DNA of 42,070 bases from a virus: positions 1-42,070 of IMG/VR virus record IMGVR_UViG_3300046512_000370; one strand, given 5' to 3'. Numbering within the stretch: the stretch's first letter is position 1; every line of letters starts with the position of its first letter. Shown piece by piece: positions 1,894-15,352 of this stretch. A model generated the notes under the pieces. It did not search any database. It was not told where the DNA came from and was given only the letters and a program-made list of their open reading frames with translations. A program made the translations under genes and the position numbers.

Positions 1894-1929
1894 TTTGAGG
1901 CGCTGGGCGTAGGGTATGCTGGGGGTAGC

Positions 1930-3264
1930 ATGGAGCTAAATAATCGTGAGGTCGCGATATTGATATGGGCTGCTATTGCCCTTGTCGCGATGTGCGTTAA
2001 AGCAGATATTAGGAGCAGTGTTTTTGAGCTGGCAAAAGCTTTTTTTAATCGCCATTTTATGGTCTTTTTTTTATTTGCGTTCTTATGGATGGCTGTCTGT
2101 GTTTACGCACTATATCGAGTTGAACTTTGGGAGTATACAAACCTCAAAACCACCGTCGTATGGGGCGTGACGTTCGCTTTCAGTTCAATGGTTGGGTTAG
2201 AGAAAATCAGGTCTGAAAAGAATTTTTTTGAAGGCTTGGTCAGTGGGGCAGTTAAGCTGACAGCTATTGTTATATTTATCACCAATCTTTATTCGTTTTC
2301 TTTATGGGTTGAGTTGATTCTAATTCCACTGGTTGTATTTCTAAGCTTACTTGGTGTGGTTTCCGCACGTGAAGAAAAAAACGCGCTCCTTACCAAAATG
2401 TTGGAATATTTGGTTGCTTTAATAGGTGTCATGTATTTTCTGAACGCAATGTACGAGGTGTTCAGTAATTTCAAGGGTTTTGCAAGTGCTACAAATTTTA
2501 AGGACTTTGTTGGTCCGATAGTTTTGACATTTATGTTTTTTCCGTTTCTCTATGTCTTCGGGTTGTATGGGGCATATAATCGCGCTTTTGCTCAGGTTGG
2601 ATTGCGGTTTGAAGATAAAAAAATTGCATCATATTCAAAGTGGACAGCATTTAGACTTTTTAGAACCGACGTCGAATTAATGCAGCAGTGGGTTCAGGAG
2701 GTGTATGTTTGGTCCGCATCAAACCCTGCAGAAATAAAAGCCTCAATAATTTCCATGAAATGTCGAAGATTTAGAGAAAAAAATCCTCTGCCCGTAGCGA
2801 GTAGTGACGGATGGCCGCCCCTGGATGCACGAAGGTTTTTATATGGTTTTGGATTGGCGGTTGAATCCTATAAGCCTGCATATGGGTACGAGATCTGGTC
2901 AGGAAGTTCAAAGTATGTAAAAGTCAATGCGAAGTATCATTCTACTAATGTCGCTTATTACATCAGGGGTGAGGATGGTGTGGTGAGGCACCTCAAGGTT
3001 GTGCTGAATGTAAATTCTGTAGAGGAGGCTGTTGTTGGTGAAGACTACTTTAAAGAGGTTGCTGAGAGTTTGCTTAGAGTGATATTTGGCGGTGTTCCCG
3101 ATAGTTTGGTTTTTCCATTGTTGAATGCGCTTGATAATGATCTCGTCGTGGAAGGGCGCGGTGTGCGCTTTAGTAAAGAGTTATATATTCATAGCATCTC
3201 TGGAGGTTACTCAAGGTCTATGAGTGTTTATAATGATGAGACCTATTTTAATGAGGTTGGTTGA
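1930..3264 (+). CDS. Multi-pass membrane protein of unknown function (AT-rich cargo gene)
   Basis: I do not recognise this family. The 444-residue product has about seven hydrophobic segments in its first half (roughly residues 8-24, 42-62, 73-90, 105-125, 128-146, 158-178 and 195-215). A soluble C-terminal half of about 220 residues follows, rich in Lys, Glu and aromatic residues, with no catalytic motif I can name. Base composition is clearly more AT-rich than the phage core, with codons such as AAA, TTT and ATA common. It lies between the integrase and the end of the convergent early operon, a usual place for lysogeny-expressed cargo. A role in exclusion or defence is possible but not shown by the sequence. 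Confidence 0.8.
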   Translation: MELNNREVAILIWAAIALVAMCVKADIRSSVFELAKAFFNRHFMVFFLFAFLWMAVCVYALYRVELWEYTNLKTTVVWGVTFAFSSMVGLEKIRSEKNFFEGLVSGAVKLTAIVIFITNLYSFSLWVELILIPLVVFLSLLGVVSAREEKNALLTKMLEYLVALIGVMYFLNAMYEVFSNFKGFASATNFKDFVGPIVLTFMFFPFLYVFGLYGAYNRAFAQVGLRFEDKKIASYSKWTAFRLFRTDVELMQQWVQEVYVWSASNPAEIKASIISMKCRRFREKNPLPVASSDGWPPLDARRFLYGFGLAVESYKPAYGYEIWSGSSKYVKVNAKYHSTNVAYYIRGEDGVVRHLKVVLNVNSVEEAVVGEDYFKEVAESLLRVIFGGVPDSLVFPLLNALDNDLVVEGRGVRFSKELYIHSISGGYSRSMSVYNDETYFNEVG

Positions 3265-3286
3265 GTCCGACCAGAAAAGGTCGGAC
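3265..3286. terminator. Hairpin between convergent genes
   Basis: GTCCGACC (3265-3272), loop AGAAAA, GGTCGGAC (3279-3286) form a perfect 8-bp stem just after the stop of the membrane protein and before the end of the convergent prtN-like gene. No long T-run follows on either strand, so bidirectional termination is an inference. Confidence 0.5.
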
Positions 3287-3294
3287 CGTCTCGA

Positions 3295-3564
3295 CTAAGC
3301 TACTTTCCCCATAAGTTTCCTTTGCTCGATTGTGGACTTTTCACGCTGCCTGTCGATGTAATTCGCAAGGTCTCTCAGGTGTATCCCTAATGCGGCTTTC
3401 TGGCTCTCAGCCCCGAGGCGAACGATAGGGATATCAATTTCTCCGTCTAAACATTTTCGTTTGAATTTTTCGACGGTCAAGTTCATATAGTCAGCGCAGA
3501 CTATATCGAGAGGGATCACTGCGCGGCCTTCATATTGAGCCATTAATAGAAACAGAGTGTTCAT
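3295..3564 (-). CDS. PrtN-family (pyocin activator-like) regulator, distal copy
   Basis: This 89-residue protein resembles PrtN, the transcriptional activator of pyocin genes in Pseudomonas aeruginosa. Family signature seen: LFLLMAQYEGRAVIPLDIVC at the N-terminus, then LTVEKFKRKCLDGEI, IPIVRLGAESQKAALGIHL and DLANYID. It is the last gene of the leftward early operon, and its ATG overlaps the stop of the methyltransferase (ATGA). With a PrtR-like S24 repressor in the same prophage, the PrtR/PrtN pairing of pyocin loci is reproduced. The target promoters here are unknown. A second family member lies at 7181-7507. Confidence 0.85.
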   Translation of the reverse strand: MNTLFLLMAQYEGRAVIPLDIVCADYMNLTVEKFKRKCLDGEIDIPIVRLGAESQKAALGIHLRDLANYIDRQREKSTIEQRKLMGKVA

Positions 3565-5306
3565 GCTGCCTCTCCCATAAGCTCGGTGTGTTCTGTGTCT
3601 CTATTGGCGCTGATAAGTGCCATCATCGGCCACGGTGACACTGAGTTACCCACCATCAGCACCTGGGTCTTGTTGCTGAACTTCCGTCCGTCGTGCCCAC
3701 GGTCGATCACGTAGTTGTCGGGGAAGCCCTGCGCACGGTAAAGCTCGCGAGGGGTGAGCATGCGCATGCCGATGTCCACGATCACATACGGCGTGCCCTT
3801 GATCGCCACCGTGACAAGTGCAAGGCGGTCCCGAGTGGTGATGGTCGCGGCTGGGTTGCGCAGGTCGTAGGTGTTGTCGCTGCCGTAATAGCCCATCAGG
3901 AAGGCGGCGACACGCATAGCGCCGGCCTCGACCTCTGGAGCGAGCTTGTACTCAACCAGCGCGTGATGTTCGGCGCCGGCCGTAATGGTCGGCACCAGTT
4001 CGTCCATGCCCCTGCCTACGCAGTTCCTGCGAAGTGTCGATAGGTGCGCGGTGACGACTTGCTGCTGACTGCCTGTGGTTGTAATGGCTGTCAGGGGTTT
4101 TACAGGGTGATGCCCTGGCGTCTCGTTGTACCCGCCGTTGTGCTGTGCAACATAGGCTACGGCCGGCGCGAAGTGACCGCCTTTAACACCGCTGCAGATG
4201 GTGCGTAGGGGATCATCCCCCGGCATGTTGCGTTGGCTGCTGCCATTGGAATGTTCGGTGATGAAGGGCGCGAACTGGGGAGTTACCAGTGCAAAGCCCT
4301 GAGCGCCAGTGATGGTCTTTGCTGGGTCGTCCACAGATTGGCAGCGTGCCAGGTCGTTGCCTGTGTGGTTCACGCTGACGATGAACGGGTTCTTGTGCTC
4401 GATGACGTAGCGCTTGGCGCCTTTGCGCAGGCGCTCCATCGTGTTGGTCACCAGTGGTCGCTTGACGCCTGCAGCACGGCCTTCTTTCTTGGTAAGGAAA
4501 ATGCTCGGGCACGGGATCGACCAGTCGATGCAACTGGCGGCGGTTCGGTACGCAGATTGTCCCTTGCCTGGGTTCTTGAAGTGCGTCGGTTCCGGCCAGC
4601 GCAGCGGCTGTCCGTCACGACGTGCGATCAGGAACAAGCGCTCGCGGGTGGTCGCGGCGCCGAAGTCACAAGCCTTGAGTTTGCCGTATATCAGGTCGTA
4701 ACCCATGGACCGCAGGATGCTTTCGAAACGACGCCAGGTCTGTCCCTTGCGCTTTGGATCGGGCACCAGGTACTGATCCTGCACCGGGACACGCTCGCCG
4801 GCAGCGGCAATGGTCATATCCCGGCGAATCACTCGTCCAGTCTTGGTGCAGCGCTTTGCGATCAGTGGACCCCATTGAAGGATCTGCACGACGTTTTCCA
4901 TGGTGATCATGCGAGGGCTGGCTTGGCCTCCCCATTTAAGGATGACCCACGATTGGGAGCGGCTGGTGGTGCTGCGCGCCTGACCGCCGGCAGCAAGGCT
5001 GTGGTGGGTGCATTCAGGGCTGGCGTGCAGGTGGGCAACTGGGCGGCCGCGAGTTGCCACACGCGGGCACACGTCGTAAACATCGGTGATGTAGTGCTCG
5101 GCGCTTGGGTGGTTGCGCTTGTGCATGCTGATGGCGTCGGGGTTGTGGTTGATGGCGATGTCGACCGGCATGCCAGTGCCCATCTCCTGGCCCATGGTTG
5201 CGCCGCCGCCACCGGCGAAGAGGTCAACCCGGATCTCGCCGGCGAAGTCGAGGCCGAACTGGGTTTTGACGGCGGATGTGATTGGGGTTGGATTGAAGGC
5301 AGTCAT
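3561..5306 (-). CDS. Solitary C5-cytosine DNA methyltransferase
   Basis: The predicted reaction is transfer of a methyl group from SAM to cytosine C5 in DNA. From the ATG at 5306 the protein is 581 residues. Motif I is VDLFAGGGG (27-35). The catalytic cysteine is in ASPECTHHS (Cys 99), an SPEC form common in phage enzymes rather than the classic PCQ. MENV is motif VI, TTRERLFLIARR motif VIII, LTPRELYRAQGFP motif IX and LMVGNSVSP motif X. A long region between VIII and IX should hold the target-recognition domain. Start choice: the frame stays open upstream to 5501, but 5306 has a GGGAGCAAC ribosome site and overlaps the previous stop (ATGA). No restriction endonuclease lies beside it, so protection of phage DNA from host restriction is the likely use. 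Confidence 0.93.
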   Translation of the reverse strand: MTAFNPTPITSAVKTQFGLDFAGEIRVDLFAGGGGATMGQEMGTGMPVDIAINHNPDAISMHKRNHPSAEHYITDVYDVCPRVATRGRPVAHLHASPECTHHSLAAGGQARSTTSRSQSWVILKWGGQASPRMITMENVVQILQWGPLIAKRCTKTGRVIRRDMTIAAAGERVPVQDQYLVPDPKRKGQTWRRFESILRSMGYDLIYGKLKACDFGAATTRERLFLIARRDGQPLRWPEPTHFKNPGKGQSAYRTAASCIDWSIPCPSIFLTKKEGRAAGVKRPLVTNTMERLRKGAKRYVIEHKNPFIVSVNHTGNDLARCQSVDDPAKTITGAQGFALVTPQFAPFITEHSNGSSQRNMPGDDPLRTICSGVKGGHFAPAVAYVAQHNGGYNETPGHHPVKPLTAITTTGSQQQVVTAHLSTLRRNCVGRGMDELVPTITAGAEHHALVEYKLAPEVEAGAMRVAAFLMGYYGSDNTYDLRNPAATITTRDRLALVTVAIKGTPYVIVDIGMRMLTPRELYRAQGFPDNYVIDRGHDGRKFSNKTQVLMVGNSVSPWPMMALISANRDTEHTELMGEAA

Positions 5307-5980
5307 ACCCGTTGCTCCCTGACATACAGCGGATCCGCGCCAATGAACACTTCTTCCGGTGCCTCCGGCCACTCCTCGCGGATAGTGTCGAACTCTCCCT
5401 CGTTCCAGATTCGTAGGAAAGTCATGCCCTCTTCTGCAGAAAGAGCGAACTGGATTGCTGCTATCGATGACTCGTTGTCTGAATGACTGGCTGTACCACA
5501 AGGCGAGCGTGTGTAGAGCGGGACTTTGTATTTTGATACTGCTCCAGCGCGGACAACGGCGTGTCGATCTGTACCGCCTTGTATGTACTCAAGATCCTTC
5601 AGACCGATATGGCATATTGGCTTTGCATCGACCTGAGTCTCGTTGTGGGCTCCACTTGAATCGGTCAGACGGAACCCAGCTGCATGGATTCGCCCAGCGG
5701 TCCTACGGCCCACTCCCTGGATGCTCATCAACTCTTCGAGTTCGGCTTTATACCCCACGGCAGGCTGCGCGAGCGGGCGATCCTGAGCGTTTAGCGTTGC
5801 ATCAGCGAGCGCTGCCCCGCGCAGCTTTTCGTGGGGTATAAGTCCCTCGGCAGTGGCGCGGGAAGGAGCAATAATGCCTGCTGCTTTGCAGCAGAGACTG
5901 TTTGTTTCCAGCGTGTCGACGCCATCGGCGGTACGGAGCAAAGCGGACAGGGTTCCGGTGTTGTTCTGGATGTTCTTCAT
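5303..5980 (-). CDS. Conserved early phage protein, function unknown
   Basis: The product has 225 residues from the ATG at 5980, which has GGAGG nine to ten bases upstream and overlaps the stop of the HD-domain gene (ATGA). A farther upstream start would extend well into that gene and lacks support. A short stretch, IQGVGRRTAGRIHAAG (middle of the protein), looks like a helix-hairpin-helix DNA-binding turn. The C-terminal part, LSAEEGMTFLRIWNEGEFD to GADPLYVREQ, resembles a tail region I associate with small Pseudomonas phage proteins. No catalytic motif is evident. Its stop overlaps the methyltransferase start, so the two are probably translated together. Confidence 0.75.
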   Translation of the reverse strand: MKNIQNNTGTLSALLRTADGVDTLETNSLCCKAAGIIAPSRATAEGLIPHEKLRGAALADATLNAQDRPLAQPAVGYKAELEELMSIQGVGRRTAGRIHAAGFRLTDSSGAHNETQVDAKPICHIGLKDLEYIQGGTDRHAVVRAGAVSKYKVPLYTRSPCGTASHSDNESSIAAIQFALSAEEGMTFLRIWNEGEFDTIREEWPEAPEEVFIGADPLYVREQRV

Positions 5981-6519
5981 GCCGCTTTCCTCCGGTGTTC
6001 GATAGCGAGTTGGTCCATCAGGCGCTGGTGGTAGGTGTTGCGGGCTTCTATGGCAGGCCATGGGCGGATGGTTTCAGTCATGGGTTCGATGCCGACCAAA
6101 CAATCCCAGATAGCCGGATCGGTTGGCATGAGGTCGCGGCGTTCGGTCGCCAGCGCAATCATGTCGGCCTGGTGGATGCAGTCCGGGAGGTCGAGGGCCA
6201 GGTCGAAGCGTTCGCAAACGCGCTCCCAGATGACATCCTCGAAGTGCCGGTAGGCAGAAAGCCACTGCTTTAGCGGTCGGGTCATGTCGCCCAGGTATGC
6301 CTCGGGGGCGTCGTGGAGCAAGGCTGCGAGCTTGTGTTCTTCCGGCACCAACTCGGCGACGATGCAGCTGTGTTGGGCCACGCTGTAGAACTCGCGTGTA
6401 TGGCCGTTGAATCGACACAGGTGGGCCAGCGAGTGCGAGATGTCCCGTGGGTCGATCATGTCAGCGTCGGGCTCGAACAGGTCGAAGCGCTTGCCGGTGG
6501 AGGTGAGGATCCAGTTCAT
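5977..6519 (-). CDS. HD-domain phosphohydrolase (YfbR-like)
   Basis: The family contains metal-dependent nucleotidases, including 5'-deoxynucleotidase YfbR. The product is 180 residues from the ATG at 6519, which has GTGAGGAAAG upstream and overlaps the preceding stop. Metal ligands fit the HD pattern: His 50 in SVAQHS, His69-Asp70 in ALLHDAPEA, and a later Asp in HQADMIALATE. DMTRPLK after the HD motif is also typical. Inference: it adjusts the nucleotide pool during phage replication. It is annotated only by family; substrate specificity cannot be read from the sequence. Confidence 0.9.
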   Translation of the reverse strand: MNWILTSTGKRFDLFEPDADMIDPRDISHSLAHLCRFNGHTREFYSVAQHSCIVAELVPEEHKLAALLHDAPEAYLGDMTRPLKQWLSAYRHFEDVIWERVCERFDLALDLPDCIHQADMIALATERRDLMPTDPAIWDCLVGIEPMTETIRPWPAIEARNTYHQRLMDQLAIEHRRKAA

Positions 6520-6737
6520 GCGGCTTTCCTCACCAGATCGGCCAGCAGCAGGGCGTTGGCGGTGGCTTTGTGCAGCTGACACAGGGCGTCGTGGCCGATC
6601 AGCGCTTTCAACTGGCGGTCGAGTTCCTTGTTGTAGCGGGTCAGTGCGCGCAGCTCCTGGGTCGCCTTGGTGTGCTGCTGTTGCAGGCTGCCGGCGGCTT
6701 GGGGTGTCAGGCGAAGCGTTTGGATGGCCTGGCTCAT
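6516..6737 (-). CDS. Small helical early protein, function unknown
   Basis: A 73-residue protein predicted to be mostly helix, rich in Gln, Leu and Lys (AAGSLQQQHTKATQELRAL, then a short basic segment). It has an AGGAGG ribosome site and overlaps the genes on both sides by ATGA junctions, which supports it as real despite its size. I do not recognise a function. Confidence 0.72.
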   Translation of the reverse strand: MSQAIQTLRLTPQAAGSLQQQHTKATQELRALTRYNKELDRQLKALIGHDALCQLHKATANALLLADLVRKAA

Positions 6738-7132
6738 GCAGCGTCCTCCTGAAAGAAGGAGTCCAGCCCTTCAGCCATGTTCAAGGCTTTGTCACGCAAG
6801 GCAAGGGCCTGTGATGCCTGGCTTTCTGCTTTAATCGCTCGGAAGGTATCAGCGGCTAGCTTGAGCTTTTCTGCTATGGCGAGAAGGTCGAGGCGGTCTT
6901 GTGGTTCCCGGTGCAATATTTGTTCAAGGCGCTGGCAACGCGTCGACACCTTTTCGATAGAGGTAGCGTACGCGGCTGAGGCATCGTCCTGCCCCATGGT
7001 GAAACCATCAGAATGGCCGTCTTCGTAACCGTCATTTTTACCGTCAGTGAGACCGCCTCGGTAGCCGGCCCAATAGAGAATAGCGGCGGCGGTAATGAGG
7101 CTGATCAGTGCGCAAATTTGAATTGCAGTCAT
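6734..7132 (-). CDS. Small membrane-anchored coiled-coil protein, function unknown
   Basis: The 132-residue product starts with a hydrophobic segment (residues about 5-24, ICALISLITAAAILYWAGY). A Gly/Asp-rich stretch with a repeated DGx(x)DG pattern (about 28-50) follows, then a long charged helix. It looks like a single-pass inner-membrane protein with a cytoplasmic or periplasmic coiled coil. An AGGAG ribosome site lies eight bases before the ATG. It belongs to the early leftward operon. Function not recognised. Confidence 0.72.
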   Translation of the reverse strand: MTAIQICALISLITAAAILYWAGYRGGLTDGKNDGYEDGHSDGFTMGQDDASAAYATSIEKVSTRCQRLEQILHREPQDRLDLLAIAEKLKLAADTFRAIKAESQASQALALRDKALNMAEGLDSFFQEDAA

Positions 7133-7180
7133 GTGGTGTGCTCCTGGTAGTTTCGTGGCTGGTGGTGGCAGCCGTCTGGG

Positions 7181-7507
7181 TTACTGGTCTTGCTCGGTTG
7201 AGTCGTTTTGTGGCCGAGGCATGTCTTCGTCCGCTCGGTAAGCGCGGATGTCGATCAGTGCTGCGACGTGTTTGATGTGGGCATACCGGATCGCCTTGAC
7301 GCTGTGGTCCAGGGTGGTCACCGGCAACTGAATACGCCCGTTGGCGATTGCCTCGGTGAAGGTCTTTTCGTTGAGGTTCTTGAAGTAATGCACGCGCAGC
7401 TTTTCCAGGGGGATAAGCACGTCGCCGAAGAGTTGGTGCAGCATCTCGACGGTGGCACTATCCGGGGCGGGTAGCAGTCGTAGCGGTGTCTGGCTGTTGT
7501 TGCTCAT
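7181..7507 (-). CDS. PrtN-family regulator, proximal copy
   Basis: A 108-residue second member of the PrtN (pyocin activator) family. The core runs MLHQLFGDVLIPLEKL, YFKNLNEKTFTEAI, GRIQLPVTTLDHSVKA and IKHVAALIDIRA, matching the PrtN arrangement of a conserved I/VPLD-E segment, an EKF/EKTF helix and a sequence ending in a KA-rich helix. Start: the ATG at 7507 has GGAGG nine bases upstream; the open frame to 7555 lacks one. It overlaps the preceding 72-residue gene by about 50 bp. It differs clearly from the copy at 3295-3564, so this is an old duplication or two separate acquisitions. Confidence 0.78.
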   Translation of the reverse strand: MSNNSQTPLRLLPAPDSATVEMLHQLFGDVLIPLEKLRVHYFKNLNEKTFTEAIANGRIQLPVTTLDHSVKAIRYAHIKHVAALIDIRAYRADEDMPRPQNDSTEQDQ

Positions 7508-7676
7508 GGGCTGCGGCCTCCTTGCGTTTGAGTCGTGAAGGGTGGTTCCAAGCATTCAGGCAATGGCGTTTGGTCAGCTCCCGCAGATGCTCCGGCACTT
7601 CGAGGAGCGCAGCGTTGCGCTCCTCGCGTGTGCTCATGGCGACGATCTGGCGGGCGTACTCTCTAGGCCACGTCAC
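7458..7676 (-). CDS. Small conserved phage protein, function unknown
   Basis: A 72-residue basic protein starting with GTG (7676). Its core WPREYARQIVAM and REERNAALLEVPEHLRELTKRHC is a pattern I associate with small proteins in Pseudomonas prophage early operons. It overlaps the upstream gene end by 14 bp and the downstream start by about 50 bp, in keeping with the packed operon. The predicted helices suggest a nucleic-acid or protein-binding role, but no motif allows a function. Confidence 0.65.
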   Translation of the reverse strand: MTWPREYARQIVAMSTREERNAALLEVPEHLRELTKRHCLNAWNHPSRLKRKEAAAHEQQQPDTATTATRPG

Positions 7677-7947
7677 GATTGTCTGCCGGGATTGCTGGCA
7701 GTTCGAGCCCCAGTTGATCGGCGAGCCAGCGGATGCCTGCTTGCCGAACCTTGGTCGACTGGCTGTACTGCATGCCGGCGGTCTCGTGGAACCAGTTGCT
7801 GTCCTTGACTCGTAGATACTCGCGATCCCGCACCGGGAAGGCCGGCAGGTTGCGGTCGTTGAGCATGCCCTTTTGACGCATGAGCAGGATCAGCTTGGGG
7901 CGGGTGAGGCCGAAGTACTTGGCGGCTTTTTCGAGGCTACGTTCCAT
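7663..7947 (-). CDS. KilA-C-like small antirepressor-type protein
   Basis: This 94-residue protein matches the C-terminal DNA-binding module of phage antirepressors (KilA-C): EKAAKYFGLTRPKLILLMRQKG, LPAFPVRDREYLRVKDSNW and GMQYSQSTKVRQAGIRWLADQLGL. The helix-turn-helix lies in about residues 5-28. No N-terminal BRO or Ant domain is present, so it is a stand-alone module. An AGGAGG ribosome site precedes the ATG. A regulatory role in early gene control is likely; the DNA target is unknown. Confidence 0.75.
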   Translation of the reverse strand: MERSLEKAAKYFGLTRPKLILLMRQKGMLNDRNLPAFPVRDREYLRVKDSNWFHETAGMQYSQSTKVRQAGIRWLADQLGLELPAIPADNRDVA

Positions 7948-7956
7948 CGCGACCTC

Positions 7957-8538
7957 CTATGCTGCATGCGCGGCGGGCGTCGCCACGGCCGCCAGGTGGG
8001 TGATGGATTCGGCGACCATGGAATAGATCTCCACGTCGCTGCCGTACACCGTGAAGCATTTGGAGCGCGGCTTTCTGACGCCGATGCTCATGATGGTGGT
8101 GATGCCGGCGCGGGATTTGTTGCGATGGATCGCCAGGTTGATCGGTTGCTCAAAACCCATGTCGAGACTGAGCGCGCCGCCGGTGCGTACCAGATCGAAC
8201 ACCTGTTGCTTATGTTCGGTTTCAAACACGCCGTAGCGTCGATCTACATGCGGCGTGGCAGGTGTCTCTGCAGGGTTGGAAGGCCCGTTGACGATCTCTT
8301 CGATGAAGTCCGCAAGCTTGAGGTGCATCTTCTTGCTGTTGGTCAGGGTCAGCGTGTGGCGTTCGCTGCCCAGCTCAACGGTGAAGTGCGTATCTGCAAT
8401 GCGGCGCTCGACTTTCAGGCGAAAAGACAGGGCCTGGCGCTGTGTATCGGTGCGCAGGAGGTGGTTGAAGGTTTCGGTCAGGCTGACCTGGGCCTTGAGC
8501 AGGGCCAGGGTGCGGTTGTCGAGTTTGTACGTGTTCAT
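7957..8538 (-). CDS. Conserved early phage protein, function unknown
   Basis: The 193-residue product is predicted soluble. It begins with a helical region (LDNRTLALLKAQVSLTETF), then beta-rich segments, and ends in an Ala-rich tail (AAVATPAAHAA). No catalytic motif is evident. A strong GGAGGG precedes the ATG and the start overlaps the preceding stop (ATGA), which supports the call. It is the second gene of the leftward operon. Function not recognised. Confidence 0.72.
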   Translation of the reverse strand: MNTYKLDNRTLALLKAQVSLTETFNHLLRTDTQRQALSFRLKVERRIADTHFTVELGSERHTLTLTNSKKMHLKLADFIEEIVNGPSNPAETPATPHVDRRYGVFETEHKQQVFDLVRTGGALSLDMGFEQPINLAIHRNKSRAGITTIMSIGVRKPRSKCFTVYGSDVEIYSMVAESITHLAAVATPAAHAA

Positions 8539-8711
8539 GCCGCTTGCCCTCCGCCGTTCGGATCGAACGGAGCAGGGGCGGTGTGCTGTTTCAGCTTGGG
8601 TTTGGCCGCGATGAAGGCGCAGCCGCAGTCTTGTGCCAGACGGCGGATTTCGAAGATGCGGGAGGGGTTAGCAGCGGCCGGGTGGGCGTGCAGGGTGGCT
8701 GTGGTGTGCAT
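8535..8711 (-). CDS. Small early protein, first gene of the leftward operon
   Basis: A 59-residue product from the ATG at 8711, which has GAGG eight bases upstream. An earlier in-frame ATG at 8747 lies next to the operator at 8750-8766 and leaves no room for a leader. The middle segment IFEIRRLAQDCGCAFIAAKP is the most structured part. Function unknown. The stop overlaps the next start, so translation of the operon appears coupled from here on. Confidence 0.6.
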   Translation of the reverse strand: MHTTATLHAHPAAANPSRIFEIRRLAQDCGCAFIAAKPKLKQHTAPAPFDPNGGGQAA

Positions 8712-8749
8712 GGTGTTGCCTCGCTCTGTGGTGGGAGAGTGAGGCAAAT

Positions 8750-8766
8750 ATCAACCACTGGTTGAT
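8750..8766. promoter_or_regulatory. Repressor operator upstream of early operon (left operator)
   Basis: ATCAACCACTGGTTGAT is a perfect 17-bp palindrome (8-bp arms, one central base). Its half-site ATCAACC/GTTGAT is the same as in the cI/cro intergenic region at 11731-11803. It is placed where the leftward operon promoter must lie. By analogy with lambda OL it should bind the S24 repressor, the Cro-like protein, or both. Confidence 0.75.
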
Positions 8767-8773
8767 TTTAGTC

Positions 8774-8790
8774 AGCGGCCATTGGTTGAT
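8774..8790. promoter_or_regulatory. Second, imperfect operator half-site
   Basis: TGGTTGAT at 8783-8790 repeats one arm of the palindrome at 8750-8766, 24 bp away. The opposite arm is degenerate. It is probably a weaker second site at the same promoter. The rest of the 8791-8930 gap holds a small GGAAC/GTTCC hairpin and the ribosome site of the ATPase gene. Confidence 0.5.
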
Positions 8791-8930
8791 TTTTTGAAGC
8801 GTCATGAGTTTATCTGCGCGGAACCTTCGAGTTCCTAGGGGAGGATGGCGCAGAGATGGTGCATTGCAGGTAGTGGCATTATGATGGGAAACCTTTAAAT
8901 TTATAAGATTGCCGCAAGAAAAGGATATTC

Positions 8931-10283
8931 ATGATTAATAGTTGCAAGTTTCGAGGCGAAGAACTGAAATTTCATTTGGGTGATGTTTGTAATTACGAAA
9001 ATATATTTACTATTGTGGTGGGTCGGAATGGGGCTGGCAAAAGCCTTTTGTTACGCCAGTTGATAAGGTCATTTGTTTCTGTACCTGAGCCCTCACAAGA
9101 TAGGCCTTTACTTAGACGCGAATGGTCGGAGGATGCGGGATCAGTCCGTTTTAATCTGCAGCCGACGAAAATTATTGCATCGTCTACTAGCCCTTTTGAC
9201 AAGTTTCCAATTGATAGAAGGGGGGAGTTTGCCAGCCAGTATGAATACGTTGGGCTGAAAGGGCTCTCTGGTCAGAACCTAAGTCTAGGGTACATGGCGA
9301 GGATTATAAGTAAGTTGTTGCGGTCGATTAATAAGGACGTTGGTCGTCTAAAAGCTATCATGAATGTGTTTTCTTACATGGGTTATCACGGGTTTATGCA
9401 GGTTAGGCTAGCTATGGATCCGTCGCCTACGGTAATGCATGAGATTTTACAGTCTGAGGACCCTAAGGGAGCGCTATTTAGTTTTTTAAATGCTCGCTAC
9501 AGAAAGGGAGCACCCTTCAATCAAAAATTTAATTACGAAGGGATTGCTGATCGAGCGGACGAAATTCTTGATGCGTTCTATTATTTTTCATTGATTAGTT
9601 TAAAACCGCGATTGGACGTCGTGATTGATGAGACTGGTGTGTTTGAAATAAATTTGGGAAACTCGGTCGATGACCGATTTTTATGTCTACTTGAATTAGG
9701 GTTTATTAGGCTTCGTGATATTACATTGCAGAAAATAGGCGTGCAGAGTCCAATTAGGATAACTGACGCAAGCTCGGGTGAGCAATGCGTTTTATTGGCT
9801 CTTTTAGGGATAGCAAGTCATATTGAGGATGGTGCATTAATATGCATAGATGAGCCGGAGGTTTGCCTTCATCCTGAGTGGCAAGAAAGATTTATCGGAT
9901 TATTGATAGATTCATTTCGTGATTTTAAATGCTGTCATTTTATTGTTGCCACGCATTCGCCTCAAGTGGTTTCAAATTTGAGTAATGACAATTGTTATGT
10001 GCTTGATATTCAGAGGGGACTTACTGTAGATGCTCGTGCATTAAATAATAGGTCTGCGGACTTTCAGTTGGCGAGCGTTTTTGGTGCTCCTGGATATAAA
10101 AATGAATATCTCACACGTGAGCTTATAAGTGCGCTAGGTACGCTAAGTGGTGGATTTGATCTGAGTAAGGAACGTATGGATGTGCTGGCTAGAATCATTA
10201 GTTTGAGAGGTTATTTGAGGCCGCACGATCCCGTTGTTAAATTGATAGATCTTCTGAGTGACGCTCTTAGCGAGGTTCAGTAA
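8931..10283 (+). CDS. ptuA: AAA/SMC-like ATPase, PtuA-like subunit of a Septu-type defence system
   Basis: A 450-residue ATPase. Walker A is GRNGAGKS (31-38). The ABC-type signature is SSGEQ (about 281). Walker B is ICIDEPEVCLHPEW (about 305-318), followed by VATHSPQ (about 340). This is the OLD/RecF-like AAA arrangement. It is coupled by a TAATG overlap to an HNH nuclease gene. This two-gene layout is that of Septu (PtuA/PtuB), an anti-phage system also found with some retrons. The gene is clearly more AT-rich than the phage core, as in acquired cargo. An AAGGA ribosome site lies six bases before the ATG. Caution: other AAA+HNH pairs exist, so the Septu name is by architecture. Confidence 0.82.
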   Translation: MINSCKFRGEELKFHLGDVCNYENIFTIVVGRNGAGKSLLLRQLIRSFVSVPEPSQDRPLLRREWSEDAGSVRFNLQPTKIIASSTSPFDKFPIDRRGEFASQYEYVGLKGLSGQNLSLGYMARIISKLLRSINKDVGRLKAIMNVFSYMGYHGFMQVRLAMDPSPTVMHEILQSEDPKGALFSFLNARYRKGAPFNQKFNYEGIADRADEILDAFYYFSLISLKPRLDVVIDETGVFEINLGNSVDDRFLCLLELGFIRLRDITLQKIGVQSPIRITDASSGEQCVLLALLGIASHIEDGALICIDEPEVCLHPEWQERFIGLLIDSFRDFKCCHFIVATHSPQVVSNLSNDNCYVLDIQRGLTVDARALNNRSADFQLASVFGAPGYKNEYLTRELISALGTLSGGFDLSKERMDVLARIISLRGYLRPHDPVVKLIDLLSDALSEVQ

Positions 10284-10999
10284 TGAGCTTGGAGCAGTCG
10301 CAGTTTAAAATAAATAGGCCATATGCGTACTCTATTAAGCATGTTTCTTTGGTTGAGGACTTTAAGAGGATGCAGCGTCAGGAACAGGTGGGCTTCTGGG
10401 ATAATACTAATAAAGGAGTGTGGAAGATAATAAAGAAAAGTCTGAAGGATCACTATATTGTTGCTCAAGATTATCAGTGTGCTTTTTGTTTGCAGAGGAA
10501 TGTGGTTGAGCATAATGGGGTTTGGGATGCTGAACACATAATACCAAAGGCTACACACCCCCACTTCATGTTTGAAAGTCAAAATCTCTGTGTGAGTTGT
10601 AAGGATTGTAATGGCGCTAAATTAGATAAGCCTGTGACTAAGGCAAAAGTGAAGGATGAGTTTTCGACCGAGTCCGATGACTACTTGATTTGCCATCCTC
10701 ACTTTGATGAGTATTCTGCACACATAAATGTCATCAGTGTGGCGGGTGTGTATTTGCCAAAAACGGATAAGGGTAGGCGTCTCATAGAGACTTGTGGGTT
10801 GCTACGGTTTTTGTATAAGTACTCCAATCATGAATGTGCCAGTGAAGAGATAAAGGCGCGAACAGTTCAGCTAAATAATCAACTTCTTGAGGCGGCGAGT
10901 GAGCTTGAGCTGATGTATATCTATGATTGTCTCGAGGATCTGGCAAAGGAGGGAAAGAGATTATTAAGGCAGAAGCGAATGGCTGCGTTAAAGGCATAG
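10283..10999 (+). CDS. ptuB: HNH endonuclease, PtuB-like subunit of a Septu-type defence system
   Basis: A 238-residue HNH nuclease. Zinc and catalytic positions are visible: CAFC (66-69), then WDAEHIIPKA (81-90) with the Glu-His pair, and NLCVSCKDCNGAKLDKP (101-117) with Cys and Asn ligands. This matches the HNH family found as PtuB. The ATG overlaps the stop of the ATPase gene (TAATG), so the proteins are likely made in fixed ratio and form a complex. Inference: the ATPase senses infection and licenses nuclease attack on DNA. The gene is AT-rich and ends 15 bp from the convergent repressor gene, with no obvious terminator between. Confidence 0.85.
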   Translation: MSLEQSQFKINRPYAYSIKHVSLVEDFKRMQRQEQVGFWDNTNKGVWKIIKKSLKDHYIVAQDYQCAFCLQRNVVEHNGVWDAEHIIPKATHPHFMFESQNLCVSCKDCNGAKLDKPVTKAKVKDEFSTESDDYLICHPHFDEYSAHINVISVAGVYLPKTDKGRRLIETCGLLRFLYKYSNHECASEEIKARTVQLNNQLLEAASELELMYIYDCLEDLAKEGKRLLRQKRMAALKA

Positions 11000-11013
11000 T
11001 TTTAGACATTAAA

Positions 11014-11739
11014 TTACTCTGGAATAAATGAACCGACTACTTTTCCACATATGTGTGTTTCTTCCGTAATATCAATGATTGGGTATTGCGGATTGATCGG
11101 CCTTAAAAATTGTCTGCCTGCGTCCGCCACCAAAATCTTAAATGTAGCTTCATTGGTCCGGGGAACCCTCGCGATCACTCGATCACCTGTCTTCGTTTCA
11201 GCCTCAGGATCCACAAAAATAATGCACCCCGTAGGATAGCTGCGACCTGGCCCTGGATTCGTCATAGAGTCACCAAGTACCTTCAGCGCATAACCGCTCT
11301 CGCTGATAGGCACAGGGCACGACAGCCATGATTCGCCGTCATGCTGCTCAAAATTCGACTCGCACCATGCGCCTGCCTGTACCCACGAAATCAGTGGGAC
11401 TTTTCCAAAGCGTCGAGTGATCTCTCGGACATTACTTTCGCCTGCTTTATCGAACTGGTGGACATTACTGTCCCCGGTCTGCTCTTTAGGTAGCACACCA
11501 TATTCCAGCCACTCCCTACGCACCTTCAACCATGAACACAGCACAACCATGCTGTCCGCCTCAGGTATGGATTCGCCATTCAGCCACTTGCTGATGGCCT
11601 GAGTACTTTTTTTACCCCCAACCTTCACAAGATGGGCGTGAATATCCACCCCACGTCCCCGGGTGCGTACACCGGCATCGTCGAGTGCTTCGTGAAGGCG
11701 CGCCGTGAAAGCTGCCCGTAGCTCGTTCTTATCAACCAT
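11014..11739 (-). CDS. cI: LexA/CI-like (PrtR-type) prophage repressor with S24 peptidase domain
   Basis: This 241-residue repressor maintains lysogeny. The N-terminal DNA-binding domain includes STQAISKWLNGESIPEADS (about 45-63), a helix-turn-helix of the XRE type. The C-terminal S24 domain has the self-cleavage site Ala122-Gly123 (WVQAGAW), catalytic Ser158 in LGDSMTNP and Lys201 in EATFKIL. RecA-stimulated autocleavage after DNA damage is therefore expected. With the PrtN-like genes, the closest functional analogue is PrtR. Its start codon lies inside an operator (11731-11747), which suggests autoregulation. Confidence 0.94.
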   Translation of the reverse strand: MVDKNELRAAFTARLHEALDDAGVRTRGRGVDIHAHLVKVGGKKSTQAISKWLNGESIPEADSMVVLCSWLKVRREWLEYGVLPKEQTGDSNVHQFDKAGESNVREITRRFGKVPLISWVQAGAWCESNFEQHDGESWLSCPVPISESGYALKVLGDSMTNPGPGRSYPTGCIIFVDPEAETKTGDRVIARVPRTNEATFKILVADAGRQFLRPINPQYPIIDITEETHICGKVVGSFIPE

Positions 11740-11747
11740 GAGTTGAT
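11731..11747. promoter_or_regulatory. Operator overlapping the repressor start codon
   Basis: ATCAACCATGAGTTGAT, 17 bp, near-palindromic (ATCAACC / GTTGAT arms). It contains the reverse complement of the repressor start codon (CAT at 11737-11739). Binding here could block repressor transcription. Confidence 0.72.
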
Positions 11748-11773
11748 ACTCTCACAGGGGTTGCGCAATAGTC

Positions 11774-11803
11774 AGTTGATGTTAATATCAACCGCGAGTT
11801 GAT
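11774..11803. promoter_or_regulatory. Operator cluster in the cI/cro divergent region
   Basis: A half-site AGTTGAT (11774-11780) is followed by the full site ATCAACCGCGAGTTGAT (11787-11803). The full site ends 15 bp before the cro-like ATG, just ahead of its ribosome site. GTTGAT (11775-11780) and ATCAAC (11787-11792) also face each other as an inverted repeat. Together with 11731-11747 this gives two full sites and one half-site across the divergent promoters. Confidence 0.75.
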
Positions 11804-11817
11804 AAATGGAGGTTGCC

Positions 11818-12078
11818 ATGTTGGACCCCGCAGATTTTCCGAACGCCATCGCGTTCGCATTTGAAGCAGTAGGCGGCATCGGAGCCGCCGCCAAGGTGTG
11901 TGAAAGGAGCTATCAGGCGCTCAATAAATGGCGCTTGGCTGCCAGCCTTCCTCGCACCGATTACACAGGTGAAACGCACTACGCAAAACTGTTAGCGAAC
12001 GCAGCAGAGCAAAAGGGCAATGCGTTTGATGCTGCCTGGTTGCTCAACGCATCGGCTCCTCAGAAAGCTGCAGCATAG
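11818..12078 (+). CDS. cro: Cro-like regulator (YdaS-type helix-turn-helix)
   Basis: An 86-residue regulator divergent from the repressor, the position of cro. FEAVGGIGAAAKVCERSYQALNKWRLAASLPRTDY holds a YdaS/Cro-type helix-turn-helix (segment about residues 15-48). Start: the ATG at 11818 has GGAGG five bases upstream; the ATG at 11806 overlaps that ribosome site and is unlikely. The predicted role is early repression of cI and control of lytic transcription through the ATCAACC operators. It is followed by a long gap before the CII-like gene. Confidence 0.82.
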   Translation: MLDPADFPNAIAFAFEAVGGIGAAAKVCERSYQALNKWRLAASLPRTDYTGETHYAKLLANAAEQKGNAFDAAWLLNASAPQKAAA

Positions 12079-12407
12079 TTAGAAAAAAGGCGACCCAAGG
12101 GCCGCCCAGTTCCTCCCGGCACACACCACCACAGTGCTGTCGGGTCGCGACGAAGGTAGGAGGGCACACCACATGCAAACCACCTCCCTTTATCGCGCTG
12201 CCAAGGCACGGATGCCTTGGGTTGCTGCCTTCTCCACCACAGATTAGGCAGCTGTTGCGCCAGAGGTGAGCAACGGATTGTTCGCCTCGGCACGGTGCCG
12301 GTTTCGATCCCTAAGATCTGGCCGGCGTTTGGGCCCTTTCAAGCCACGCGGCAAATGTAACACCACTGCATGTCGCGGGGCACTGGCAACTTAGTAGGAT
12401 TAATGCC
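12079..12407 (+). other. Structured leader/gap between cro and the CII-like gene
   Basis: No long gene is present. The stretch has several inverted repeats: GCGACCC (12090-12096) with GGGTCGC (12142-12148), and a perfect 8-bp hairpin CCAAGGCA-CGGA-TGCCTTGG near 12204-12223. It also carries a 25-codon reading frame with a good ribosome site (12173-12247). It may be a regulatory leader RNA or antitermination region, but I recognise no known class. Confidence 0.45.
12173..12247 (+). CDS. Possible leader peptide / micro-ORF
   Basis: ATG with AGGAGGG eight bases upstream opens 24 codons ending in TAG. The product is small, basic and without a membrane segment. The internal hairpin CCAAGGCA/TGCCTTGG lies inside the frame, as in some attenuator leaders. 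No homologue comes to mind; it could be a chance frame with a good ribosome site. Confidence 0.35.
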   Translation: MQTTSLYRAAKARMPWVAAFSTTD

Positions 12408-12926
12408 ATGAGCCGAGTAGCTTTAAGCTGTGTTGATCGAGCGCAAAGGGAAGTCCTGACGCTCGAATTAGCCCTGTACCACGCCGCACGGGACTATCCC
12501 GGCGGTGCCGCTGCAATCGCCGCCACCACCGGCCGTAATGCCACCACGTTGCAGCACAAGTTGTCTCCCACCCATCCCTCGCACACGGTCAACATTCAAG
12601 AGTTCGGCGAGATCCTCGAATTGACCAAGGACCGCCGCATCCTCGATGCGGTGCATGCATTGGTCGGCGACACAACTTGGCAAGAGCTGGCTGAAACCTA
12701 TACCAGCGACATGCCTGAAACCCTGACTACCGGTATTGCCTCGTACTTCAGGCAGGTGGCTGATCTGGCCGACACCTGGGCCAAGAGCATTGGCGATGGC
12801 GTTGTGAGTGATCAGGAACTGGCCGAAATTCGCCTGCAGGTATTTCGCGGAATCCAGGGGCTGTTGGGGATGCTCAATCGCGCCCAATACGTCAACCAGA
12901 CAACTCGGGGGGCGGACCGTGGCTGA
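12408..12926 (+). CDS. Phage regulatory protein, CII family (CP76-like)
   Basis: A 172-residue regulator in the cII position downstream of cro. Family features: ALYHAARDYPGGAAAIAATTG (helix-turn-helix start), NATTLQHKLSPTHPSHTVN (recognition region), then EFGEILELTKDRRILDAVHAL. The remainder is a helical oligomerisation part with a Leu-rich end. The family includes activators and repressors of early and lysogeny promoters in P2-like and lambda-like phages. TAGGA lies upstream of the ATG. The target site was not identified. Confidence 0.86.
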   Translation: MSRVALSCVDRAQREVLTLELALYHAARDYPGGAAAIAATTGRNATTLQHKLSPTHPSHTVNIQEFGEILELTKDRRILDAVHALVGDTTWQELAETYTSDMPETLTTGIASYFRQVADLADTWAKSIGDGVVSDQELAEIRLQVFRGIQGLLGMLNRAQYVNQTTRGADRG

Positions 12927-13146
12927 CGACATCGACTTTGCAAATGACCTGGTGCAGGAGCGTATGGACCGTGCGCTTGCCGCACGAAACGCGAAAAAAA
13001 CCACCACGTCCGCGCATTCCTTCATGTTCTGTGAAGAGTGCGACACGCCGATCCCAACAGCGCGCCGCGTTGCGATCCCCGGCTGCACGCATTGCGTGAC
13101 CTGCCAATCCATCGACGAAGCCAGGAATGCCCGCCATGCTCGATGA
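12919..13146 (+). CDS. TraR/DksA-type C4 zinc-finger protein
   Basis: A 75-residue protein from a GTG at 12919, which has a GGGGGCGG stretch upstream and overlaps the CII-like stop. It has the C4 finger CEECDTPIP...CTHCVTCQ (CxxC-x17-CxxC), diagnostic for the TraR/DksA family. These proteins enter the RNA polymerase secondary channel and can change promoter use. The end overlaps the primase start by 20 bp. A longer frame from 12808 would overlap the CII gene and is not supported. Confidence 0.87.
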   Translation: MADDIDFANDLVQERMDRALAARNAKKTTTSAHSFMFCEECDTPIPTARRVAIPGCTHCVTCQSIDEARNARHAR

Positions 13147-15352
13147 GGTATTGAATCAGTTCGCGGACTACGGCCTTGAACCCGCTCAGCCCCTGGCCTT
13201 CGGCAAACTCACCCGCTGCAAAACCACCCAGGACAAAGGCAAGGAAAAAAACGGCTGGTACGTCATCCACGAACACCGTACCGAAAAAAACGAAACGCTG
13301 ATCTTCGGCAGCTTCGGTGACTGGCGCTCCGGTGACACCCAAAAGATCAAGGTCAAGGCCGGGCGCATGAGCCCCGAAGAGCGTGAGGTCATGCGCGCTC
13401 GGCAGGAAGACGCCAAGCGTAAGGCTGCCGAGGTTGCGGCCAACGCGTCGCGCCGAGCGGCCAGCCGTGCTGCCGGCCTGTTCAAGCGCATGCCGGAGAA
13501 GGGCAAGAGCGCCTATCTGGATCGAAAGCAGATTGTCGGCTTCAAGGTTCGCTATGCGCCACGTACTGGCGCATTTTTGGTGCCTATGTGCAATGTGCGC
13601 GACCAGATCGTCGGCCTGCAGGTGGTTTTCCCCTCGAAGCAAGAGGACACCGGCCGCGACAAGGCGTACTGGCCCTACGGGATGTCGAAGGAAGGCGCCT
13701 TCCACCTGATCGGCCCGCACCCTGAGCCCGGCGAACCGGTGCTGGTGTGTGAGGGCTACGCCACGGGCGCCAGCCTGCACATGGCGACGTCGCTTACTGT
13801 TGCCATCGCCTTCGACGCGGGCAACCTGCTGCCGGTCTCCAAGGCCATGCGCGAGCGTTTCCCCGGTTGCCCGCTGATCATCTGCCGCGATGATGACTGG
13901 AAGACCAAGCGCCCCAACGGCGACCCTTGGAACCCAGGCGAAGAGAAGGCCAATAATGCCGCGCTGGTTGTTGGCGGTCAGGTAGTCGCCACGGTGTTCT
14001 CCGGCGAGCGTGAGGTCAAGTGGACCGACTTCAACGACCTGCACGTCGCCGAGGGATTGGAGGCCGTTCGCCGCCAGGTGCTGGCGGTGGTCAAACCTCC
14101 TGCAGCGGGTGGCTGGAAAGACCAGTTGGCCCGTACCGAAAACGGCTCTCTGATCGCGCACATGCAAAACGTCGAGCTGATCCTGGGCAACGACGAACGC
14201 TGGGCCGGTGTCATCGGCTACAGCGTTTTCAGCTCCAAGATCGTCAAGTTGCGGTCTGCGCCCTTCGGCGGTGGCGCCGGCGATTGGGCCGACATTGACG
14301 ACATGCGCGTGATGAAGTGGCTCGCGCAGCAGTACAACCTGCGCGTGAAGGCTTCACATGTGATCGAGGCGGTCAGCGTGGTCGCCCACGACCATGCCTT
14401 CCACCCGGTGCGCGAGTACCTGGAGAAGCTGGAGTGGGACCGCGTGCCCCGCATTGAAACCTGGCTGACCGATGTGCTGGGCGTCCAGGCCAGCGAGTAC
14501 TCGACCAAGGTCGGCAAGCGCTGGCTGATCTCTGCGGTCGCACGGGTAATGCGCCCAGGCTGCAAGGCTGACTCGGTGATGATCCTCGAAGGCGGGCAGG
14601 GCGCCGGTAAGTCCACGGCTATGGGCGTTCTCGGCGGAGAGTGGTTCATGGATACGCCCTTTGCCCTTGGCGACAAGGACAGCTTCCAGGCGATTCGCGG
14701 CAAGTGGATCGTCGAGCTGGGCGAGCTGGACAGCTTTAACAAGGCCGAAAGCACCAAGGCCAAACAGTTCTTCTCCGCGTCCACCGACACCTACCGCGAG
14801 AGCTACGGCCGCAGAACGAACGACGTGCCACGCCAGTGTGTTTTCGTGGGCACCACCAACCAAGAGGAATACCTCAAGGACGCCACGGGCAACCGCCGCT
14901 ACTGGCCGGTGTTCTGCAACAAGGTCGATCTGGAGCAACTGCGCGAGATCCGCGATCAGCTATGGGCCGAGTCGCTGTTCTGCTTCGAGGCAGGCGATAT
15001 CTGGTGGGTGACTAAGGACGAGTCTTGGATGTTCGCCGAGGCCCAGGACGAACGCTTCGTGGTGGACGAATGGGAAGGGCCGATCCTGGCCTGGATGGAA
15101 GAGTCGCAGATCGGCGAAACCGCCACCGGCAACGAGATCCTGACCCAGGCGCTGAAGCTCGACTTCGGTCATTGGGGCAAGCCCGAGCAGATGCGGGTAG
15201 GGGCAATCATGCACCGACTGGGTTGGCGCAAGCGGCGAATGCCGGCATTGCCGAAAAGCGGGGTACGGCCTTGGGCCTATGAGAAGCCTGCGGGCTGGGG
15301 CCGTGCGTCTGTGTTGCAGCAGTCGGTGATCGAGGAGCCTTGCTTTGATTAA
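13127..15352 (+). CDS. TOPRIM primase fused to VapE/VirE-type helicase
   Basis: A 741-residue replication protein. The N-terminal part holds a zinc-less primase-like region, then a TOPRIM fold: VLVCEGYATGASLH (about 204-217) with the catalytic Glu, and PLIICRDDD (about 249-257) with acidic metal ligands. The C-terminal half is a VapE family P-loop NTPase: ILEGGQGAGKST Walker A (about 485-497), KWIVELGELDSF Walker B, and VFVGTTNQEEYLKDATGNRRYW with sensor residues. It is expected to prime and unwind phage DNA. Start: ATG 13127 is used; ATG 13136 is also possible. No separate helicase, SSB or polymerase is seen, so host enzymes must supply the rest. Confidence 0.92.
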   Translation: MPAMLDEVLNQFADYGLEPAQPLAFGKLTRCKTTQDKGKEKNGWYVIHEHRTEKNETLIFGSFGDWRSGDTQKIKVKAGRMSPEEREVMRARQEDAKRKAAEVAANASRRAASRAAGLFKRMPEKGKSAYLDRKQIVGFKVRYAPRTGAFLVPMCNVRDQIVGLQVVFPSKQEDTGRDKAYWPYGMSKEGAFHLIGPHPEPGEPVLVCEGYATGASLHMATSLTVAIAFDAGNLLPVSKAMRERFPGCPLIICRDDDWKTKRPNGDPWNPGEEKANNAALVVGGQVVATVFSGEREVKWTDFNDLHVAEGLEAVRRQVLAVVKPPAAGGWKDQLARTENGSLIAHMQNVELILGNDERWAGVIGYSVFSSKIVKLRSAPFGGGAGDWADIDDMRVMKWLAQQYNLRVKASHVIEAVSVVAHDHAFHPVREYLEKLEWDRVPRIETWLTDVLGVQASEYSTKVGKRWLISAVARVMRPGCKADSVMILEGGQGAGKSTAMGVLGGEWFMDTPFALGDKDSFQAIRGKWIVELGELDSFNKAESTKAKQFFSASTDTYRESYGRRTNDVPRQCVFVGTTNQEEYLKDATGNRRYWPVFCNKVDLEQLREIRDQLWAESLFCFEAGDIWWVTKDESWMFAEAQDERFVVDEWEGPILAWMEESQIGETATGNEILTQALKLDFGHWGKPEQMRVGAIMHRLGWRKRRMPALPKSGVRPWAYEKPAGWGRASVLQQSVIEEPCFD

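Follow-up and report, generated by a model that had tools for sequence, protein, structure and literature searches.

A Septu-type gene pair in an exchangeable defence slot between the cI repressor gene and the left operator of a Pseudomonas-type temperate phage

The stretch of viral DNA analysed here (the window, a 42,070-base IMG/VR virus record) belongs to a Pseudomonas-type temperate phage, in whose immunity region two Septu-type genes, ptuA and ptuB, occupy the slot between the repressor gene cI and the left operator (OL). In about 100 related phages the same slot holds many interchangeable defence systems, all in one orientation, and we consider it probable that ptuAB is a standalone Septu cassette that protects the lysogen from this defence-exchange slot. 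Related phages combine the same flanks with unrelated defence cargos, as prophage defence hotspots do, and we regard the slot as a variant form of the cI-N/rex hotspot described earlier. Prophage-borne Septu systems are already known, as are defence hotspots that adjoin a repressor gene (PMC9122126, PMC8585504); in the open-licence literature we found no description of this slot, of its fixed convergent orientation or of the palindrome that its cargos share.

ptuAB encodes a predicted Septu ATPase and HNH nuclease

The two genes are arranged as follows.

8931..10283, plus strand: ptuA, Septu ATPase of the ABC/AAA15 type, 450 aa (PADLOC, Pfam AAA_21/AAA_15, motifs)
10283..10999, plus strand: ptuB, HNH nuclease, 238 aa (PADLOC, conserved C/H/N residues)

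The original prediction, made from the letters of the window, was of a Septu-like ATPase-HNH pair at 8931-10999 bearing Walker A, SSGEQ, DEPE and Cys/HNH motifs. The open reading frames lie exactly within these limits, with the stop codon of ptuA and the start codon of ptuB overlapping as TAATG, and the profile search that had been proposed as a check returned full-length PADLOC matches for both proteins: in hmmscan, PtuA matched PDLC00283 over residues 17-447 of 450 (E 7.5e-129, 428.7 bits) and PtuB matched PDLC00345 over residues 10-230 of 238 (E 3e-72, 240.8 bits). PtuA contains a Walker A motif, GRNGAGKS (31-38), the signature SSGEQ (281-285), a Walker B motif, ICIDEPE (304-310), and ATHSP (340-344); all four are conserved among PtuA relatives, and the first three are unchanged across 13 aligned PtuA sequences. 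Residues C66/C69, H85, N101, C106/C109, N110 and H138 of PtuB are conserved in aligned relatives, with H85, N101 and the CxxC pairs invariant across 12 aligned sequences. The 16-residue spacing of H85 and N101 is the same as that of H75 and N91 in Septu EcB88, where substitution of H75 and N91 abolished immunity (PMC13096335). By sequence, ptuAB belongs to the Septu family as a full-length ATPase/HNH pair.

The foreign codon use that had been noted is borne out by a GC content of 0.42 and GC3 values of 0.38 and 0.46 for the two genes, compared with GC of 0.62-0.64 and GC3 of about 0.80 in the primase, terminase and portal genes. It had also been proposed that the ATPase, at 450 residues and with no extra C-terminal domain, could represent a distinct subtype. 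This argument fails because the solved E. coli PtuA chains have 465 residues and the PADLOC PtuA models about 450, so that the length is normal for PtuA.

ptuAB lies between the operators of the immunity region

The immunity region comprises cI on the minus strand and cro-like and cII-like genes on the plus strand, with the following features.

8750..8766: left operator (OL), palindrome ATCAACCACTGGTTGAT, an exact ATCAACN5GTTGAT
8774..8790: degenerate second OL half-site AGCGGCCATTGGTTGAT, 24 nt from the first OL site
8747..8775, minus strand: candidate leftward early promoter PL, overlapping OL (-35 CTGACT, 17 nt, -10 GATATT)
11014..11739, minus strand: cI-like repressor with S24 autoprotease domain (Pfam Peptidase_S24, 78.5 bits; PHROG transcriptional repressor)
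11731..11747: right operator (OR) palindrome at the cI start, an exact ATCAACN5GTTGAT
11787..11803: second OR palindrome, before the cro-like gene and 56 nt from the other, an exact ATCAACN5GTTGAT
11806..12078, plus strand: cro-like gene, 90 aa (PHROG 35 transcriptional repressor, E 4.2e-5)
12408..12926, plus strand: cII-like gene (Phage_CP76; Pfam, 75.4 bits)

The exact palindromes at 8750, 11731 and 11787 place the plus-strand ptuAB genes between two operators, as predicted, and between OL and cI, with which they lie tail to tail. A rex-like position had been claimed for the pair, which is right for its place, from cI to OL, and wrong for its orientation, since ptuAB is convergent to cI. The second OL site is scored as a two-mismatch operator in the near-identical locus L023. 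PL was read by eye as a candidate promoter and is weak in the window (4/6 and 4/6 consensus positions).

Two further features of the early region were observed. A perfect short palindrome, CGGCACGGTGCCG, is located at about 12300 of the window (plus strand), between the cro-like and cII-like genes, and is found in many relatives too. The leftward early operon includes a gene for a cytosine-C5 DNA methyltransferase (3561-5501, minus strand), possibly serving restriction evasion, and the same enzyme is annotated in the related P. aeruginosa phages U5 and Haddon.

The slot between cI and OL holds interchangeable cargo in one orientation

A query with the window cI gave 171 relatives in IMG/VR, and 80 of them were retained; the first set comprised 73 loci including the window, and two further scans with divergent cI queries added 24 loci with an OL, giving 97 in total. 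The slot was defined as the interval from the cI stop codon to the first ATCAACN5GTTGAT palindrome, the left operator. In nearly all of the retained relatives the two OR palindromes are spaced by 56-57 nt, and past cI, at a distance that differs between loci, come one or two OL palindromes with a spacing of 21-25 nt; in the 97 loci one or two sites of the ATCAACN5GTTGAT type follow cI. The cI-to-OL interval ranges from 31 nt (empty) up to 3.6 kb in the first 73 loci, and across all 97 the slot is either empty (31-43 nt) or contains one to three genes. Every slot gene of at least 100 aa in the first 73 loci is convergent to cI (92/92, none co-directional, in 39 protein clusters), as are those in the added loci (23/23, with five empty slots of 31-36 nt), so that 115 of 115 such genes, from at least 39 unrelated families, have the same orientation in the 97 loci. 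The phage-conserved sequence stops at the cargo-proximal edge of OL. The empty slots with the cI stop 31-43 nt from OL (L088, L092, L097, L099, L100, L194, L195, L197, L202 and L203) possibly represent the ancestral state.

One ptuAB-bearing relative is located in a chromosome contig of Pseudomonas sp. KBW05. Among named phages, only MT837188, an unannotated 7.5 kb fragment, has a close cI, and its slot carries a homologue of the cluster-5 cargo. A cI search of 369 gammaproteobacterial genomes, run without a positive control, gave no match.

Many of the cargos resemble established or candidate defence systems: representatives of the clusters match PADLOC/Pfam models for AbiC, two PtuA lineages, KAP systems, PDC-S21, PD-T4-10 B, a CBASS cyclase with Cap15, DRT5, PDC-S28, SIR2, NACHT with SNaCT13, PARIS-like AriA/AriB, NsnB and Lamassu LmuABC. 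In the first set, 43 of the 67 occupied slots have a PADLOC-matching cluster representative, a raw share, uncorrected for background, that includes a few weak matches. The cargo distribution does not track cI descent: a cI tree of 72 tips requires 51 or more changes of cargo, where the minimum is 29 and shuffling gives a mean of 59.7, and unrelated cargo is present in a pair of loci with 93.6% identical cI DNA.

About one-third of the occupied slots contain proteins without a defence-model match (for example clusters 5, 7, 10, 12, 19 and 24/25), which makes these genes good candidates for new antiphage systems. The cargo lacks a PADLOC match in the slots of L051, L036, L090, L027, L095, L032 and L083, and the unmatched types include DUF2806, DUF4062, ORC-CDC6-like AAA, C92 peptidase-like and no-domain proteins. 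In L044, the cluster-5 cargo (~7000-8800) is split into three open reading frames, as in a decaying or frameshifted cassette. The simple rule that defines the slot, cI stop codon to nearest following ATCAACN5GTTGAT palindrome, reads out defence genes in a lineage with almost no close named members.

Unrelated cargos share an upstream palindrome

Between OL and the first cargo codon lies a degenerate 21-nt palindrome that is common to unrelated cargos. In the window it is found at the following position.

8870..8890: palindrome GTAGTGGCATTATGATGGGAA, upstream of ptuA, between OL and ptuA; consensus approximately TGATRGCAnnnTGCYATCA

This is the best-scoring site in the 42 kb record, the window itself being part of the training set. 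When the model was cross-validated five-fold on 30 groups of mutually unrelated cargo, 16 of the 30 held-out groups reached p<0.05 against dinucleotide shuffles, where 1.5 were expected, and the palindrome is weak in about half of the groups. When the fixed model was applied to new loci, around two-thirds of the occupied slots reached p<0.05, most of them carrying relatives of trained cargos and a few being near-duplicates of one another. Sites of at least 11 bits number 61 in 1.05 Mb, 40 of which lie within 170 nt of OL (partly training data). None of the four bacterial loci (L012-L015) has a site of at least 9 bits upstream of ptuA. A sigma-54 site was rejected on inspection, the GG/GC spacing being unfit; use of the palindrome near cro/cII was rejected on weak scores there (mostly 7-9 bits), and a 20-nt symmetric motif model was rejected as little above shuffles.

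The pattern suggests that the palindrome may be a functional operator. As a tentative reading, to which we give somewhat less than even weight, this Pseudomonas phage lineage would carry an operator-bounded docking site in its switch, where unrelated cI-facing defence cassettes come under a common regulator through the shared palindromic operator, with the consequence that defence genes of any origin would join the prophage's own regulatory circuit. The palindrome could instead be residual phage sequence, or reflect composition, with no regulatory function: all copies used for its discovery lie in a short region beside OL, whose flanks could ride on recombination, and about half of the cargo groups have a weak site. 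We regard this as rather unlikely, given the cross-validated signal in 16 of 30 held-out groups and a distance to OL that ranges between about 9 and 105 nt in otherwise unrelated surroundings. Phages of the same group (L122, L127) also have strong sites in front of a distal ptuA locus that is not part of the slot. Should the palindrome prove functional, it would illustrate how defence cassettes of unrelated origin can be brought under a single regulatory scheme by a prophage, and the way in which prophages express defence and still induce unharmed would become directly testable.

The distal genes form a second ptuA lineage, approximately 29-33% identical to the window ptuA (L122, L123, L127, L120 at ~1100-2600 and L132 at ~6380-7700); in four of these five loci it lies roughly 1.2 kb from the end of the locus. 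Several of these phages also have a cI-adjoining slot that holds other cargo. The presence of the palindrome upstream of ptuA in all five loci suggests a second defence site.

ptuAB probably protects the lysogen

A protective role of ptuAB appears well supported by context because the slot is full of defence genes. In the proposed mechanism, ptuAB fills a defence-cargo slot that has the left operator on one side and the 3' end of cI on the other, and we infer that it would be expressed in the lysogen, most likely from its own promoter just inside OL; the putative ptuA promoter is weak by consensus. PtuA would serve as an ATPase sensor or scaffold that restrains PtuB until infection, whereupon the HNH nuclease would cut an essential nucleic acid, either host tRNA or phage DNA, with the result that the lysogen and its prophage would be protected from other phages. 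Slot cassettes would be swapped between phages by recombination. Both kinds of target have precedents, since tRNA-Tyr is the cleavage target of Septu EcB88 and retron-Eco7, and nicked DNA is reported for the Septu of E. coli ATCC 25922 (PMC13096335, PMC11555353). Vibrio phage PE002, in which Septu is located beside cI, provides an independent precedent for the position.

Alternatively, the cargo might act in the phage's own lytic/lysogenic decision or in the exclusion of related phages, with defence only a secondary function. The slot is part of the switch region and has the operators as its limit, transcription running towards cI might interfere with it, and lambda RexA is reported to affect the switch (PMC11077077). 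We consider such a role improbable, since the cargos are mutually unrelated (39 clusters) while cI, cro and the operators stay conserved, empty slots occur, and most recognisable cargos are defence systems.

Divergence of the pair and its relation to retrons

In searches of PDB chains, the window PtuA matched AriA, retron PtuA and Septu PtuA, mostly within the ATPase core, and is far removed from every solved Septu/retron PtuA protein. Foldseek with the PtuA model (pLDDT 77) returned only retron and Septu PtuA as top matches (E 1e-8 to 1e-5), at TM-scores that are mostly low (0.31-0.41). Structure prediction gave a poor-quality model for PtuB, and a PtuB profile searched against all PDB chain sequences ranked retron and Septu HNH proteins first (best E 1.9e-4). 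PARIS identity was rejected, AriA reaching only 74.7 bits against 428.7 for PtuA and the partner being an HNH protein, not an AriB TOPRIM/DUF4435.

Since retrons Ec78/Ec83 use PtuAB effectors and a retron PtuA ranked first in the fold search, we considered whether ptuAB could be the effectors of a type I-A retron that has lost its reverse transcriptase and msr/msd or has them at another location. This is very unlikely: there is no RVT_1 anywhere in the 42,070-base record, Rfam gave zero matches at E<=1 within 7000-13500, and PtuA/PtuB fall far below the cut-offs of the NCBIfam retron-Ec78 models NF041760/NF041761 (scores of 52.8 and 26.2 bits, where 500 and 150 bits, respectively, are required). 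Nor does a reverse transcriptase adjoin ptuAB in any of the examined slot loci, DRT5 being a cargo of other phages without ptuAB. Retron I-A identity was rejected on these grounds, and the absence of a retron agrees with what had been seen from the letters. Because PtuA is divergent and the pair is below the retron-Ec78 cut-offs, the nuclease target is not transferable from known systems. It is barely credible that PtuB is a homing or other selfish HNH endonuclease with the ATPase as a chance neighbour: HNH genes are plentiful in phages and the HNH family matches of PtuB in Pfam and PHROG are weak, but ptuB overlaps or abuts the 3' end of ptuA in every examined relative with both genes (IMG/VR, named phages and bacterial contigs), and both proteins match Septu models over their full length. 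Judged by sequence, ptuAB is an ordinary member of the Septu family, yet one on a divergent branch.

Comparison with known systems

The pair shares with standalone Septu (PtuA/PtuB) the ATPase-HNH gene order, the motifs, the full-length PADLOC models and the coupling of the genes, and differs in its divergent branch, for which no close solved or tested relative was identified. The retron I-A effectors (PtuAB of Ec78/Eco7 and Ec83/Eco4) are of the same effector superfamily, but their PtuA has 542-550 residues whereas the window PtuA, at 450, is about 100 shorter and is accompanied by neither a reverse transcriptase nor an Rfam RNA. In P. syringae, Septu is annotated more often than any other system (PMC13182921). 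Burkholderia phage KS9 (L010) has an AAA ATPase and HNH pair between integrase and repressor (1658-3710), a distant Septu-like arrangement that its record does not call Septu.

Among prophage defence sites, the cI-integrase hotspot of K139-like P2 prophages, which includes Septu, RM and PARIS (Rousset et al. 2022, PMC9122126), likewise adjoins cI, but belongs to P2-related Vibrionaceae phages and lies between cI and integrase, whereas the window slot lies between operators. In Pseudomonas, the RexAB-type system of P. putida prophage P1 is also downstream of a CI-like repressor, in the same operon with two genes in between (PMC12894663), unlike the convergent ptuAB. A parallel in location is the cI-N hotspot of lambda rexAB and BTP1 bstA, where defence genes are likewise exchanged at a site flanked by the repressor and the left early promoter; rex and bstA follow the repressor gene and are presumably transcribed from its promoter (Owen et al. 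2021, PMC8585504). The window ptuAB has this location, from cI (11014-11739) to OL (8750), but not the co-direction with cI: rexAB and bstA are co-directional with the repressor, whereas in the present lineage the cargo begins next to OL and all 115 of its genes run towards cI.
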